Positions 75 to 20,612 of a stretch of DNA of 39,303 nucleotides are shown here, piece after piece. A program made the position numbers and the translations under genes. Positions within the stretch are counted from its first letter, which is position 1. Each line of letters opens with the position of its first letter. Below the pieces are notes generated by a model, which worked only from the letters and a program-made list of their open reading frames with translations, was not told the origin of the DNA and made no database searches. Source of the DNA: a virus; IMG/VR virus record IMGVR_UViG_3300045974_000183, positions 1 to 39,303 of that record. One strand, given 5' to 3'.

Positions 75-219
75 CATCCCGCAGGTCCCTGAGTCTGTCC
101 TCCTCTTGACCATCGCGGCGGACGGGAAGTCATGCACGCTCCAGCCGCGTGACCCGGCGACCTGGGAGCCGCGCAGCGTCTACATCTGGATCGAGGGTCC
201 GCCGGAGCCCACGCCGTGA
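10..219 (+). CDS. Small hypothetical protein linking fibre and lysis genes (69 aa)
   Basis: No family is recognised. The 69-aa product has no membrane segment, is proline- and tryptophan-containing and acidic, and ends in a PPEPTP tail. When the window is closed into a circle, its ATG overlaps the stop of the upstream 356-aa secreted protein (ATGA at 39239-39242). Its own stop overlaps the GTG of the next gene (GTGA at 216-219). Such double translational coupling argues that it is real and belongs to the late operon. A second in-frame ATG lies at 31. The gene's first 65 bases occur again at 39239-39303, where the copy is cut by the window end. It could be a small virion or chaperone-like accessory protein, but this is a guess from position only. 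Confidence 0.7.
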   Translation: MTTRGGIMEPGSVWSFDLADGFIPQVPESVLLLTIAADGKSCTLQPRDPATWEPRSVYIWIEGPPEPTP

Positions 220-617
220 GGCTCCTCGGCTACATCTGGGCCTCACCGCTGGTCCTCGTGGCACTGCTCGCGCTCCTGCCGCTGTGGGCTCTCGGGCAGG
301 TGGCTCCGCTGCGGTGGGACGGCCAGATCGCGTGGGCGTGGCAGGTCCGCGCGGGCTCGTGGCTCGACCGGCGCACGAGCGGGTGGAGTGGGTTCACCGC
401 AGGCTGGCTGATTCTGTACATGCCGGCCTGGGACGTGTTCCTGGTGGTGAGCCACCACGAGCGGGAGCACGTTCGGCAGGCGTTCCGGTGGGGGCCCCTG
501 ATGCCGTTCGCGTACCTCGTGTGCCTCGCGGTGTACGGCTACTGGAGCAATCCGTTCGAGAAGGCCGCGCGCGCCGCGGCTGCTGATGGCTACCTACCTG
601 GGACGGCGCCTCAATGA
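216..617 (+). CDS. Membrane protein with HEREH gluzincin-like zinc motif (133 aa)
   Basis: The GTG start overlaps the preceding stop. The N-terminus has a hydrophobic segment (about residues 8-27). A second hydrophobic stretch (about 62-79) leads straight into H81-E-R-E-H85, followed by a third hydrophobic stretch (about 94-108) and then NPFEKAAR with E115. HExxH followed about 30 residues later by an Asn-Pro-x-Glu segment resembles the zinc site of small gluzincin-type metallopeptidases (two His plus a distal Glu). The protein would sit in the inner membrane. It is the first gene of the lysis cassette and is coupled by ATGA overlap to the holin-like gene. It might process a host envelope protein or another lysis protein. 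The family assignment rests on the motif only, and it could be an inactive membrane protein. Confidence 0.75.
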   Translation: MRLLGYIWASPLVLVALLALLPLWALGQVAPLRWDGQIAWAWQVRAGSWLDRRTSGWSGFTAGWLILYMPAWDVFLVVSHHEREHVRQAFRWGPLMPFAYLVCLAVYGYWSNPFEKAARAAAADGYLPGTAPQ

Positions 618-877
618 ACCAGCCTGCGTATCGAACCGTCATCACCTCCCTGGCCGTGGTCGCGATGCAGCTCGCCGCGTTCATCGTGGGCACGCGCCAC
701 GGCTGGACCGGGGACGCCTCCCACTCCTTCGACTCGCTCTGTATGTGGAGTTGCATCGCAGCCATCGGGCAGGCCGGCAAGAGCGCGGTGGAGTCGCTTG
801 CCCAGGGCTCGGGGCTCAAGGGGGCCGCCGCTGCCATCCTCACCGACGCAAAGCCCGGCGACCCGGTGAAGCCGTGA
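614..877 (+). CDS. Holin-like small membrane protein (87 aa)
   Basis: The ATG overlaps the upstream stop (ATGA at 614-617), and its TGA overlaps the GTG of the next gene. The 87-aa protein has one clear hydrophobic segment (about residues 8-26, SLAVVAMQLAAFIVGT). A weaker one follows near residues 40-55 (SLCMWSCIAAIGQAG), then a soluble charged C-terminus. Size, topology and position two genes ahead of an M15 endolysin fit a holin that forms inner-membrane lesions and times lysis. No sequence family is recognised, so the call is positional. The neighbouring 115-aa protein could be the holin instead, or the two could work as a holin/antiholin pair. Confidence 0.7.
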   Translation: MNQPAYRTVITSLAVVAMQLAAFIVGTRHGWTGDASHSFDSLCMWSCIAAIGQAGKSAVESLAQGSGLKGAAAAILTDAKPGDPVKP

Positions 878-1221
878 ACGTCTACAACCTAGTCTCGGCG
901 GTCGGAGCGGTCACCCTCCCGGCGGTCCTCGTGGGACAGACCGTCCCGCACGGGCTCGCGGACCAGTTGCCGGTCATCTTGTGGACGGTGGGCGCGATTG
1001 GCGCGGTCCTACTCGGCTACCGGCGAGCCATCGAGGAGGTCGAGTCCCAGGTCAGCAAGAAGTTGGACCTCCACACGAGGGACGAGGAGCTTCGCTTCAA
1101 CGCGATCTTGGAAGAGACGAGGGTCATCAAGCTGCAAGTCGCGTTGATCGTGGAAGCCCTCAACATCCACGCGGTGAAGCACCCGTCCTCCCCCTCCGTC
1201 CCGAAGATCCAGACCCCGTGA
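874..1221 (+). CDS. Membrane protein with cytoplasmic helix, second holin-like candidate (115 aa)
   Basis: I chose the GTG at 874, which overlaps the upstream TGA (GTGA); the open frame extends further upstream, but only through the holin gene. Two hydrophobic segments are visible (about residues 5-22 and 33-50). A long charged amphipathic helix rich in Glu/Lys/Arg follows (about 51-90), then a proline-rich end. This two-TM-plus-helix layout is seen in several holin or antiholin families and also in small phage membrane proteins that pair with an endolysin. The stop overlaps the endolysin start. Role in lysis is inferred from the cassette position. Confidence 0.7.
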   Translation: MNVYNLVSAVGAVTLPAVLVGQTVPHGLADQLPVILWTVGAIGAVLLGYRRAIEEVESQVSKKLDLHTRDEELRFNAILEETRVIKLQVALIVEALNIHAVKHPSSPSVPKIQTP

Positions 1222-1646
1222 CCCAGGACGAGAAGTCATCAGCGGTCCTCGCCTCCGTGCGGCCCGAACTCCGCAAGGTCGCTGAGTACGTCCAAAAGTA
1301 CGTCGGGGACAACCACAGCATCCGTCTCATCTGGGTGCAGGGCTTGCGGACGGAGGAGGAGCAGGCGAAGCTCTACGCTCAGGGGCGAACCGCGCCAGGC
1401 CCCATCGTGACGCAGGCTGAGAGTGCCGCCACATCTCCGCATGGGCGCGGGGCCGCGCTTGACTTCGCCGTCCTCGACCAGTTGCGCCGGCCCACCTGGG
1501 ACTATGGCGCGGTGGGGATGTACAACGTGGTCGGGAACATCGCGAAGACGCAGGGGCTCGTCTGGGGAGGGGACTTCCGGCACCCCGACAGGCCGCACAT
1601 CGAACTGGCATCTTGGAAGGAGCTACCCTTCCCGTGGTCACCCTAA
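1218..1646 (+). CDS. Endolysin, M15-family L-alanyl-D-glutamate-type peptidase (142 aa)
   Basis: The GTG at 1218 overlaps the preceding TGA. The protein shows the M15C/VanY-like zinc peptidase signature: QGLRTEEEQAKLYAQGRT (residues 41-58), then SPHGRGAALDF with H75 and D82 as zinc ligands, then DRPHIEL with D124, H127 and E129. This is the arrangement of phage L-alanyl-D-glutamate endopeptidases such as the T5 lysin, which cut the peptide stem of peptidoglycan. There is no signal peptide or SAR helix, so export through a holin lesion is expected. There is no separate cell-wall-binding domain, usual for lysins of Gram-negative phages. The spanin-like gene starts inside its 3' end. Confidence 0.92.
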   Translation: MTQDEKSSAVLASVRPELRKVAEYVQKYVGDNHSIRLIWVQGLRTEEEQAKLYAQGRTAPGPIVTQAESAATSPHGRGAALDFAVLDQLRRPTWDYGAVGMYNVVGNIAKTQGLVWGGDFRHPDRPHIELASWKELPFPWSP

Positions 1647-2143
1647 CGTGGCGGCTCGCCACCCTGCTTGGCTTGCTTGGATTCGTTGCGGGTGGTGCCC
1701 TCGGCTGGCGGCTTGCGGGTGCCCCGCCCCCGGTGGAGAGACGGGTAGAGGAACGGATTGTCTACCGGGACCGCACTACGACGAACACCGTGGCTGGCCC
1801 GGTGCGGATACAGACGCGCACGGTAACTGTGCAGGTCCCGGTGACAACTTCGACGGGAACTGTGTTGTACGTTCCACGAACTGAGACGGTCGTCAACGAG
1901 GTCCGCGGGGAGATAAAGACTTTTACCTTCCGCGACACGAACGAAAAATTGAGCTTCAAAGTTTACGAGATGCCGAAGCCCCCACCCACTTGGTCAGTGG
2001 ACTGGAGGCCCCGGCTTCTCCCCACGCAAGACCTCGTGGGCACGCTGGCGGTGGGCTACCGCGCCATCGGCCCCGCTTGGGTGGAGGTCTGGGTTTCCCC
2101 CCTCGCCCCTTCCGCCGGGGTGGGGCTAAGGGTGGAGTTCTGA
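1634..2143 (+). CDS. Membrane-anchored spanin-like protein (169 aa)
   Basis: I chose GTG 1634 because AAGGAG lies about 11 bases upstream; an in-frame ATG at 1613 would lengthen it by seven residues. A single N-terminal transmembrane segment (about residues 6-25, with ATLLGLLGFVAGGALGW) is followed by a Glu/Arg-rich and Thr/Val-rich beta-like region. The C-terminus (about 120-169) has aromatic and glycine-rich strands and ends in VGLRVEF, reminiscent of an outer-membrane-like strand. Placement directly after the endolysin and overlapping it is where spanins sit. It lacks a lipobox and a long coiled coil, so a classical i-/o-spanin pair is not evident. It might be a unimolecular-type or unrelated envelope protein. 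Its 3' end overlaps the convergent helicase gene by 88 bases. Confidence 0.7.
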   Translation: MVTLTWRLATLLGLLGFVAGGALGWRLAGAPPPVERRVEERIVYRDRTTTNTVAGPVRIQTRTVTVQVPVTTSTGTVLYVPRTETVVNEVRGEIKTFTFRDTNEKLSFKVYEMPKPPPTWSVDWRPRLLPTQDLVGTLAVGYRAIGPAWVEVWVSPLAPSAGVGLRVEF

Positions 2144-15528: not shown

Positions 15529-15816
15529 ATGGGGAAGTACACGACGTTCAAAAACAAGGTGGCACCGGAGCCCGTTCGGCTCCCCGCGCCTGCTCCTCCC
15601 CCGCCAGAGGAGGAAGATGCCGTCCCGATGGAGACGGACAGGGACATCATGGCCGCATCGCGCATCGCTTTGGCGCGAATGATCACAGACCCCAAGGGAA
15701 ATGCCCTAGCCAAGATCCGCGCAATCGAATTGCTGACCTCCAAGAACAAGCTCGCGCTCCTGACCGACGAAGACCTGATTGCTGAGTTGACTAGAAGGAC
15801 GCCGAAGGATGGCTGA
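15529..15816 (+). CDS. Putative small terminase subunit (95 aa)
   Basis: ATG 15529 has GGGAGG six bases upstream. The N-terminus is proline- and glutamate-rich (PEPVRLPAPAPPPPEEED). The C-terminal half is helical (ASRIALARMITDPKGNALAKIRAIELLTSKNKLALLTDEDLIAELTR). First gene of the late arm and overlapping the large terminase by 8 bases, it sits where the DNA-recognition subunit TerS normally lies. No helix-turn-helix is evident and no clear TerS family match is recognised, so the call is from position and helical character. Confidence 0.7.
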   Translation: MGKYTTFKNKVAPEPVRLPAPAPPPPEEEDAVPMETDRDIMAASRIALARMITDPKGNALAKIRAIELLTSKNKLALLTDEDLIAELTRRTPKDG

Positions 15817-17278
15817 CCCGACGATGGACGCCCTCCTCCGCGCGGGGGCTGCGTTCCTGGCCCGGCGTCCCGCGCAGAAGCCCCCTCCCGACCTGTTCGC
15901 GACCTGTTTTCCCGAGCAACTCGCGTTCATTCGAGATCCCTCTCTCCGCAAGGTCGCGTTTTGCACCCGCCGCGCAGCGAAGTCCTACTCAGTCGGGCTA
16001 ATCTGCGTGGACTCGATGCTGAAGTTCCCGGCGAAGCACCTGATCGTGGGGCACACCCGCGAGTCCGTGCGCGGAGCGTTCTGGGTAGACGTTCTGAAGG
16101 ACATCGCCCTCCGGTACTCGCTGGACCTGACGTTCAACGAGACACGCCTGGAGGTCATGCACTCGGGTGGGGGCTCCATCCGGCTACTGGGGATGGACTC
16201 CAACGAGGGCGAGCAGCGGAAAGCCCTCGGCCAGAAGTACAGGGTGGTCGCGATTGACGAGGCGCAGGACTTCCGCACCGACATCACCCAGTTGGTCCTG
16301 GGAACGCTCCAGCCCGCCCTGGCCGACTGGCGCGGAACGCTCATCCTTGCGGGCACGCCGGGTAACCTGCCCTCCGGCCTCTTCTACGAGGCGTCGGCGG
16401 GTAAGACAGCCGGGTGGACGGTACACAGGTGGGACGCCTACAAGAACACCTCCGTCCCGACTGGTTTGAAAAAGAGACTGTGTGACCAGTGGGCCGAGGA
16501 GATCAACACACTCATCTCGAACAACCCGCGCGTGATAGAGGTCCCCTGGTTCCGGCAGAACTACATGGGCGAGTGGGTGATCGAGGAGGACAAGCTTGTC
16601 TACCGCTACTCCCCCGAGCGCAACTCCTACGCCTCTCTCCCCGAGCACCCCCACGGCAAGTGGCACTACGTCCTCGGCTGCGACCTCGGCTTCAACGACG
16701 CCACAGCCTTCGTGGTCTGCGCCTATCACGACCACGACCGCACCCTCTACCTGCTCGACTGTTACGCCCGCGGAAACATGGACATCACCGAGGTAGCGGC
16801 GAAGGTGAAGGAGTTCTCCTCCCGCTACGACTTCTCGGCGCTCGTCGTCGATAACGCGAACAAGCAGGCGGTCGAGGAGATGCGCCGCAGGCACGAGATC
16901 GGGTGGACCCCCGCCGATAAAGTTGGTAAGAGCGACTTTATCGAATTGATGAATGGCGATCTCATCCAAGGGAACATCAAGCTCTCCCCCGCGTGCAAGG
17001 CTCTCGCGACAGAGTGGCAGAAGCTCATCTGGGATGACCGGGACAAGGGGCAGAAGCGGAAGGAGCATCCCGCTTGCGACAACCACCTCTCGGACGCAGC
17101 CCTTTACGCATGGCGTCATGCTTACGCCTACTTCTCCACCCCCAGAAGCCCTGACCTCCAGCCGTACACGCCGGAGTGGTTTGAGCAGGAGGCTGATCGG
17201 ATGGAAGCCGCCGAGGAGCGGTATCAGAAGGAGCTTGAGGCCGAGCGCAACGGGGAGGACGCCACATGGTTGAGTTGA
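15809..17278 (+). CDS. terL: Terminase large subunit (489 aa)
   Basis: The ATP-driven DNA packaging motor and headful or cos nuclease. Walker A-like CTRRAAKS (residues 52-59) replaces the classical GxxxxGKS, a known terminase variant with an Arg-rich loop. Walker B with catalytic Glu is VVAIDEAQD (146-154). Then come ILAGTPGN (coupling motif) and an RNase H-like nuclease with CDLGFND (D292), LVVDNAN (D348) and HLSDAALYAW (D429). All catalytic acids are present. It overlaps TerS by 8 bases and the GNAT-like gene by 13. The sequence type gives no firm packaging mechanism. Confidence 0.96.
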   Translation: MADPTMDALLRAGAAFLARRPAQKPPPDLFATCFPEQLAFIRDPSLRKVAFCTRRAAKSYSVGLICVDSMLKFPAKHLIVGHTRESVRGAFWVDVLKDIALRYSLDLTFNETRLEVMHSGGGSIRLLGMDSNEGEQRKALGQKYRVVAIDEAQDFRTDITQLVLGTLQPALADWRGTLILAGTPGNLPSGLFYEASAGKTAGWTVHRWDAYKNTSVPTGLKKRLCDQWAEEINTLISNNPRVIEVPWFRQNYMGEWVIEEDKLVYRYSPERNSYASLPEHPHGKWHYVLGCDLGFNDATAFVVCAYHDHDRTLYLLDCYARGNMDITEVAAKVKEFSSRYDFSALVVDNANKQAVEEMRRRHEIGWTPADKVGKSDFIELMNGDLIQGNIKLSPACKALATEWQKLIWDDRDKGQKRKEHPACDNHLSDAALYAWRHAYAYFSTPRSPDLQPYTPEWFEQEADRMEAAEERYQKELEAERNGEDATWLS

Positions 17279-18701: not shown

Positions 18702-20612
18702 ATGGCAACCATCGACTTCCGCAGCTTCTCCAACGGCAAGACTCCCCCTGAGCAGAACAAGTCGGGGGTGGACCTCCGCTGGTGGGACAGGACGGGTGGC
18801 GAGCTTGCCGACTCGGTGAGCCAGACCCTTCTTGCGCTGGACCGCGCGCAGGCGGCGCGCATCTCACAACTCATCACAGCGGCCCGGTTGTACGGGAACC
18901 TGCCCATGCTGGGCATGACCGGGATGACCTACTCCCGCTACGGGGCCATCCAGAACGTGATGCGGGAGCGGCTCACGTTCAACGTCATCCAGTCGGTCAT
19001 CGACACGGTGACGGCAAAGATCGCCAAGAACAAGCCGAAGCCATTCTTCCTCACCTCGGGGGCAGACTACAAGACCCAGCGGAAGGCGAAGCGGCTCAAC
19101 ATGTTCGTGGAGGGCCTGTTCTACGAGAACGACGCCTACAAGCTCGGAGAACTCATCTTCCGAGACTCGTGCATCTGGGGAGATGGGCTCGCGCACGTCT
19201 TCGTGGACGAGAACGGGCGGATCAAGTTCGAGCGGGTCGCGTCGTCGGAGATGTACGTCGATGAGATCGAGGCGTTCTACGGTCAGCCCCGGCAGATGCA
19301 CCGGGTGGTGAATGTGGACCGGCACGTCCTCATCGACCGCTTCCCTGGCAAGAAGAAGCTCATCGTGGACGCGAACGCAGCCCCGATGGAGGACGCCCGC
19401 GCGCCGAACGTCGCGGACGTGGTGATGGTGCGGGAGTCCTGGCACCTCCCCTCGTCCAAGGGTGCGAAGGACGGCAGGCACGCGATCACCATCGCGGGTG
19501 AGACGCTGCTCTCGGAGAAGTGGGTCTACGACTTCTTCCCCTTCGCTCGGATGCAGTGGTGCCCGAAGCTCTATGGGTACTGGAGCCAGGGGCTTGCGGA
19601 GCAGGTCCAGAACATCCAGATGGAGATCAACAAGGTCCTCTGGATCGTCCAGCGGTCCTACCAACTCGGCGGGAGCTTCAAGGTTCTGGTCGAGAACGGC
19701 AGCAAGGTGGTCAAGTCCCACCTCGACAACGAGGTGGGGTCCATCATCACCTACACGGGCAGACCGCCGGAGTACATCGTCCCTCCCATCCTCCCGCCGG
19801 AAATCTACGGGCACCTGGAGAAGCTCAAGCAATCGGCCTACGAGCAGGCGGGCATCTCCATGCTGTCGGCGGCGAGCAAGAAGCCGGAGGGGCTCGACTC
19901 GGGCCGCGCGCTCCGAGAGATGAACGACATCGAGTCAGATCGCTTCGTCATGGTGGGGCACGCCTACGAGCGGTTCTTCCTCGACCTCGCTCGCATCGGC
20001 ATCGCGCTCGCGCGCGAGGAGGCGAGGGAGTCTGGGAGCTACGACGTGAACGTGCCGGGGCGCATGGCGCTCCGCAAGTTCGACTGGAAGGAGATCGACC
20101 TCGAAGAAGACTCCTACGTCATGCAGTGCTTCCCCGTCTCATCCCTGCCGAACCAGCCCGAAGGCCGGTTCCAGACCGTGCAGGAGTGGGTGCAGGCGGG
20201 CTGGTACACAGTACGGCAGGCGAAGAAGTTGATGAACTTCCCCGACACCGAGCAGATCGACTCGCTCCAACAGGCGGCGGAAGACGTGATCACCGAGGAC
20301 CTCGACAAGATCGTGGACGAGGGGATCCAGACCGCGCCGGAAGCCCTCGACAACCTGGAGGTCGCGGCGGAACTGGCCCTGGAGTACTACCAGATCGGGA
20401 AGGTGAACGGCCTGGAGGACGAGCGGCTTGAGATGCTGCGCGTCTACATCCAGCAGGTCAACGCTCTGATGAACCCGCCGCCGCCTCCCGGTGCGCCGCC
20501 CCCGGCTCCTCCCATGATGGCACCTCCTCCTCCTGGCGCTCTCCCGCCCGGTCCCCCGCAGCCCCAGATGGCACCTCCCCCTAGCGCGCCTCCTGCGCCT
20601 GGAGTTCAGTGA
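18702..20612 (+). CDS. Portal protein (636 aa)
   Basis: Position directly after the terminase block, length, and the pattern of a long mixed alpha/beta protein identify the dodecameric portal through which DNA enters the head. Visible hallmarks include FNVIQSVIDTVTAKIAKNKPKPFF (wing region), IFRDSCIWGDGLAHVFVDENG, MEINKVLWIVQRSYQLGG, EYIVPPILPPEIYGHLEKLKQSAYEQAGIS, and GRALREMNDIESDRF, all typical of podophage portals. The last 45 residues are proline-rich (PPPPPGAPPPAPPMM), a disordered tail. The next gene overlaps its stop by one base. Confidence 0.92.
   Translation: MATIDFRSFSNGKTPPEQNKSGVDLRWWDRTGGELADSVSQTLLALDRAQAARISQLITAARLYGNLPMLGMTGMTYSRYGAIQNVMRERLTFNVIQSVIDTVTAKIAKNKPKPFFLTSGADYKTQRKAKRLNMFVEGLFYENDAYKLGELIFRDSCIWGDGLAHVFVDENGRIKFERVASSEMYVDEIEAFYGQPRQMHRVVNVDRHVLIDRFPGKKKLIVDANAAPMEDARAPNVADVVMVRESWHLPSSKGAKDGRHAITIAGETLLSEKWVYDFFPFARMQWCPKLYGYWSQGLAEQVQNIQMEINKVLWIVQRSYQLGGSFKVLVENGSKVVKSHLDNEVGSIITYTGRPPEYIVPPILPPEIYGHLEKLKQSAYEQAGISMLSAASKKPEGLDSGRALREMNDIESDRFVMVGHAYERFFLDLARIGIALAREEARESGSYDVNVPGRMALRKFDWKEIDLEEDSYVMQCFPVSSLPNQPEGRFQTVQEWVQAGWYTVRQAKKLMNFPDTEQIDSLQQAAEDVITEDLDKIVDEGIQTAPEALDNLEVAAELALEYYQIGKVNGLEDERLEMLRVYIQQVNALMNPPPPPGAPPPAPPMMAPPPPGALPPGPPQPQMAPPPSAPPAPGVQ

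Follow-up and report, generated by a model that had tools for sequence, protein, structure and literature searches.

Phage lysis is usually described in terms of holins, endolysins and spanins. Among proteins whose phenotype has been studied by experiment, the one nearest to that reported here is the C-terminal domain of VgrG2b, a DUF4157-class metallopeptidase in which zinc is held by two histidines and one glutamate (PMC6899460). In the periplasm this domain is toxic and causes midcell blebbing and lysis, for which the catalytic site is required; its substrate has not been identified (PMC6899460).

The stretch of DNA analysed here (39,303 nucleotides, positions 1–39,303 of IMG/VR record IMGVR_UViG_3300045974_000183; below, the window) represents a podovirus-like genome of 39.3 kb, in which portal, terminase, DNA polymerase and primase are encoded. 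The lysis operon begins, upstream of the holin candidates, with a gene for a predicted membrane-anchored zincin, which may help lysis by cutting proteins and have been overlooked in that role. The preliminary description of this DNA stated that lysis cassettes do not normally contain a membrane protease, and the uniqueness which this implies is not supported: the family is widespread, lies also near terminase, portal and tail genes, and has members already annotated as proteases: crAss-like relatives as 'putative zincin superfamily protease' and the Riemerella phage RAP44 copy as 'protease'. The open literature, to which most subscription papers do not belong, yielded no description of such a protein in lysis cassettes.

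The gene at 216–617 and its operon

The open reading frame at 216–617 encodes 133 residues. It is a real gene rather than a chance reading frame, because it has full-length homologues at 33–36% identity and the HExxHxxQ motif is kept in relatives. Its GC content by codon position (0.70/0.53/0.88) follows the same pattern as that of the neighbouring genes; an overlapping frame at 149–586 was excluded as the gene on account of codon-position GC unlike theirs. The GTG start at 216 overlaps the stop of the upstream gene and is preceded, 8 nt 5', by a Shine–Dalgarno GGAG (204–207). The TGA stop (615–617) overlaps the ATG at 614 of the next gene, and the overlaps at both ends are of 4 bp. Translation places HEREH at residues 81–85 (456–470) and E115 within NPFE, exactly where the preliminary description had put them. 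The same description called the protein multi-TM, whereas only one segment passes hydropathy. Residues 94–107 form a helix common to the family; in the better model, that of a compact relative (L084, pLDDT 91), it is part of the globular zincin fold. The charge rule gave no clear membrane topology for the protein.

The five genes in Table 1 overlap successively. The proposed lysis-cassette setting is borne out by the database match of the M15 endolysin; the holin and spanin candidates are assigned to the operon by position and hydrophobic segments. The TGA/ATG overlap with the holin-like gene downstream, which the preliminary description read as translational coupling, is present; the holin identity is assigned by position and hydropathy only, neither 614–877 nor 874–1221 having a Pfam or PHROG match. 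The product of 1634–2143, TM-anchored and encoded 3' of the endolysin, had no PHROG match and is a candidate for a new type of spanin.

Table 1. Features of the operon that contains the zincin-like gene (window coordinates).
Feature	Position	Strand	Basis
Membrane-anchored zincin-like protein gene	216..617	+	GTG start, Shine–Dalgarno sequence, overlaps at both ends, GC3 0.88, family alignments, phrog_37302
Predicted TM segment, residues ~12–30	249..305	+	Hydropathy 2.31 over 19 residues
HEREHVRQ (HExxHxxQ), predicted zinc-binding/catalytic motif, H81 E82 H85 Q88	456..479	+	Invariant in alignments
NPFE, residues 112–115; E115 candidate third zinc ligand	549..560	+	Start of helix 113–125
Small hydrophobic protein, 87 aa, holin candidate	614..877	+	Position and hydropathy; ATG overlaps zincin-gene stop
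Holin-like candidate, 115 aa, two hydrophobic segments and charged tail	874..1221	+	GTG overlaps preceding stop
Endolysin, peptidase M15 (VanY-like), 142 aa	1218..1646	+	PF13539 9.6e-10; phrog_6523 (lysis) 2.7e-21
Rz/spanin-like candidate, 169 aa, N-terminal TM and periplasmic-type domain	1634..2143	+	Position and TM only

Family, fold and bacterial kinship

The window protein was matched to phrog_37302 (E=3e-4, function unknown), and some of its relatives match phrog_15610. Searches against Pfam and NCBIfam returned no usable match, and PDB sequence searches no similar sequence. PF13699 did not match the window protein, and its relatives score weakly with that profile, L197 alone lying above the cut-off (23.3 versus 22 bits); judged from sequence, the relation is one of kinship and not of membership. 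Pattern scans of IMG/VR returned about 170 loci, forming 85 groups at 70% identity. The family is large, mostly nameless and spread over phages and bacteria. Its core, with which the window protein agrees (alignments A5, A7 and A9), consists of HExxHxxQ followed at conserved spacing by Y, GY and NPxExxA.

Conservation of the motif was examined with relatives retrieved by YGYxxNP[YF]E alone (12 genome and 80 viral loci), each of which was also required to match the window protein by tblastn. HExxHxxQ is kept in all 92 of these (79/79 non-identical), although the retrieval did not use it; the set addresses the HExxH end only, NP.E being part of the bait and E115 thus lying outside its reach. The motif is likewise invariant in the 61-row and 71-row family alignments. 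P113 and E115 are invariant in alignment A5, for which NP.E was in the retrieval patterns. In addition, 149 genomes belonging to the same phylum as a Nitriliruptorales relative were searched with a profile, and the family was present in 43. HExxHxxQ and the downstream Glu, here reading [NH]..E..A, are intact in 20/20 of the profile-found bacterial homologues examined.

Several candidates were removed from the family. The first relative (L001) is antisense to a 798-aa ORF and was judged a chance match. Ten loci whose motif lies in a different sequence frame (L047, L071, L074, L089, L112, L129, L150, L160, L162 and L179), as well as the long proteins L052, L076, L086, L128, L130 and L180, were not taken further, being either zincins of another kind or chance matches. 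L074, L089, L129, L150, L047, L112 and L179 form a separate phage group with HExxHxxQ...NP[FY]E and longer N-termini (130–155 aa), probably another small zincin family.

An AlphaFold model of the window protein was computed with 61 family sequences. The N-terminal half is poorly predicted; residues 81–120 have pLDDT 93–97. H81 and H85 are placed together, one turn apart on a single helix (76–107), and a second helix (113–125) begins just before E115. The model of L084 (pTM 0.79) runs from two short strands through the HExxH helix (42–58), a break and a further helix (60–74) to the Glu helix (80–88); the break between the helices would allow the Glu to reach the metal site. A Foldseek search of BFVD with the window model returned a DUF4157 protein (prob 1.00, TM 0.76 on target) and a SprT-like protein (prob 0.98). 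Against the PDB the window model had no match, and the best hits for L084 were BlaR1 (M56) and selecase, both gluzincins, at a non-significant E of 0.5–1. With the strict motif, the histidine pair on one helix and these DUF4157, SprT-like and weak gluzincin neighbours, the predicted fold class is well supported. Neither of the two outcomes that the preliminary description had named as refuting its proposal, a fold that separates the two His or loss of HExxH among homologues, was observed. The window protein is very probably a zincin-fold metallopeptidase, as first suggested, with presumed peptidase activity.

In the phylogenetic tree the window protein falls inside a clade that is otherwise purely bacterial chromosomal (support 97/92 and 99/95, with 99/97 when the tree was built again). 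The surrounding sequences belong to Actinomycetota and Chloroflexota, the nearest being from Chloroflexota, and the other phage members all lie outside this clade in both trees. The window branch is long (1.3–1.6 changes per column). Homologues in the bacterial clade share a TM segment (VWAxPLTxxG...) that precedes the first His by about 70 residues. In at least 8 of 20 bacterial loci the zincin gene lies behind ileS in the same orientation; the L297 copy faces divIVA, yggT, sepF, yggS, pgeF and ftsZ (Pfam-confirmed). These bacterial-locus genes are ordinary chromosomal genes and not prophage genes. The phage probably took the window gene from a bacterial chromosomal family.

Two side observations concern the bacterial members. 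In the Actinomycetota-type clade (L290–L299 and L305; L297, 4382–10299) the TM-zincin gene keeps its place next to ileS and converges with the genes divIVA-yggT-sepF-yggS-pgeF-ftsZ. Chromosomal relatives in Brachyspira MAGs (spirochaetes; L193 and L195) also have an N-terminal TM segment of their own.

Gene neighbourhoods in other phages

Relatives beside holins, which the preliminary description had proposed to look for in related phages, occur in several unrelated phage lineages, and adjacency to holins or endolysins exceeds that expected from random placement. In L148 a complete cassette consists of the zincin, a holin (phrog_785), an endolysin (phrog_669) and an Rz-like spanin (phrog_2466). 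In RAP44 the 'protease' gene overlaps that of a holin (phrog_14914), followed by an Rz-like protein (weak match) and then the endolysin. The order in L042 is M15 endolysin, zincin and a three-TM holin-like protein; in L166 the zincin lies directly behind an M15 endolysin, the two overlapping; and in L121 two TM proteins and a CHAP-like lysin (weak, E=0.004) precede the zincin and a further TM protein.

Near-neighbour tallies with PHROG and Pfam showed that many relatives adjoin terminase, portal/head–tail or tail genes (phrog_332, phrog_449 and phrog_2), which speaks against a general lysis role for the whole family. These tallies prompted a whole-record test, meant to remove the choice of loci, in which 46 contigs, mostly longer than 17 kb, were searched for M15_3, phage lysozyme and Amidase_2. 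Amidase_2 matches within proteins of about 1,200 aa (G193, G175 and G165) were left out of the endolysin count. A stand-alone endolysin was present in 16 of the 46 records. It lay less than 2 kb from the zincin gene in 7 of these (1.7 expected at random placement; p=0.0007, which is optimistic since several records are related), less than 5 kb away in 10 (4.1 expected, p=0.0016, again with related records) and more than 11 kb away in 6. The link between zincin and lysis genes is therefore recurrent and not universal.

Most phage relatives have neither a TM segment nor a signal, and a single site of action for all of them is therefore doubtful. One compact clade (L084, L085, L158, L020, L029 and relatives), in podovirus-like phages, lies directly upstream of a large portal/head–tail protein (phrog_332), which suggests a second, non-lysis role.

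Proposed role and comparison with known systems

The gene, its operon position, motif, fold class, bacterial kinship and recurrence by lysis genes are supported by sequence and model. The reading that we tentatively put forward for the whole chain of events is that of an anchored minimal zinc metallopeptidase (DUF4157/minigluzincin-like) of bacterial origin, acting as a late accessory of the lysis operon that cuts envelope proteins. The phage would have acquired it from a bacterial chromosomal family and would make it late, together with the lysis genes. H81, H85 and E115 would bind zinc, with E82 as the catalytic base. At the end of infection the enzyme may clip one or a few membrane or envelope proteins, the likeliest targets being host envelope proteins or proteins of division and cell-wall synthesis, and the cleavage could let endolysin and spanin complete lysis faster. 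The analogy with the VgrG2b C-terminal domain leads us to propose that, at the onset of lysis, a protein of the envelope or of division is cleaved by the anchored enzyme; zinc binding, cleavage, the side of the membrane, the target and the effect on lysis are inferred. A more far-reaching version, which we regard as doubtful, is that the minimal zinc peptidase family was recruited several times independently as a protein-cutting lysis factor, the TM-anchored window copy, from a bacterial family adjacent to division genes, hinting at divisome or septal targets.

Phages place many unrelated genes beside lysis genes. The late operon could conceivably be a hot spot for cargo, with the zincin a moron, superinfection-exclusion or host-takeover protease whose cleavage of a protein at the host surface or in the inner membrane blocks other phages, its lysis neighbours being incidental. 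The scatter of family members over terminase, portal, tail and lysis loci is in keeping with this, as are the 12 changes of lysis location on the tree of 90 columns (at least 7 of them forced) and the probable origin of the window gene from a bacterial chromosome. Incidental neighbours, however, do not account well for the enrichment of adjacent endolysins or for the complete cassettes that start with the zincin gene (L148, RAP44 and the window), and we consider this explanation rather unlikely. The stop/start overlap with a holin-like gene in both the window and RAP44 would also suit a regulatory protease that acts on the lysis proteins of the phage itself and would time lysis by cleaving holin, antiholin, endolysin or spanin precursors. 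The endolysins and holins beside zincin genes are, however, of unrelated types (M15, lysozyme, SLT and amidase) with no common phage substrate apparent, and such a regulator is quite improbable.

A protease of morphogenesis or of the virion is improbable to a still greater degree: many relatives adjoin portal and terminase genes of the PHROGs named above, or crAss-like capsid and tail genes (L288), but the window copy is TM-anchored, sits in the lysis operon and is far from its own portal (18702–20612) and terminase (15809–17278). We give equally little weight to the idea that the zincin fold persists as a remnant without catalysis or serves a structural purpose. The long window branch may reflect a drift in function, yet the protein still has its three presumed ligands, its catalytic Glu and Q88.

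Should a protease that cuts envelope proteins recur in lysis operons, it would add an activity beyond those of the classical lysis proteins. It would also mean that a large family so far without a name (phrog_37302, eCIS_core-like) acquires a function, and might point to a protein that, once cut, leaves the envelope of the bacterium weaker.

In comparison to known systems, the window protein has in common with DUF4157/eCIS_core (PF13699; eCIS_core was formerly DUF4157) the HExxHxxQ signature and the BFVD fold match; it is smaller, and it is found in a lysis operon instead of in eCIS or T6SS. Minigluzincins (selecase and proabylysin) and the membrane gluzincins M56 BlaR1 and M48 resemble the family in size (about 100 aa) and in the order of HExxH helix and Glu helix, with the fold match to minigluzincins and BlaR1 remaining below significance and without sequence similarity in the PDB search. 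The HExxHxxQ...NPxExxA core is common to the window protein and the phrog_37302, phrog_15610 ('protease') and crAss-like zincins, which are compact, belong to other clades and lack the N-terminal membrane anchor that the window protein has. The closest counterpart in gene order is gp05 of RAP44, which shares both family and place, overlapping a holin gene with the endolysin 3'; it belongs to another clade, has no TM anchor and is accompanied by an amidase endolysin, whereas that of the window is of the M15 type.
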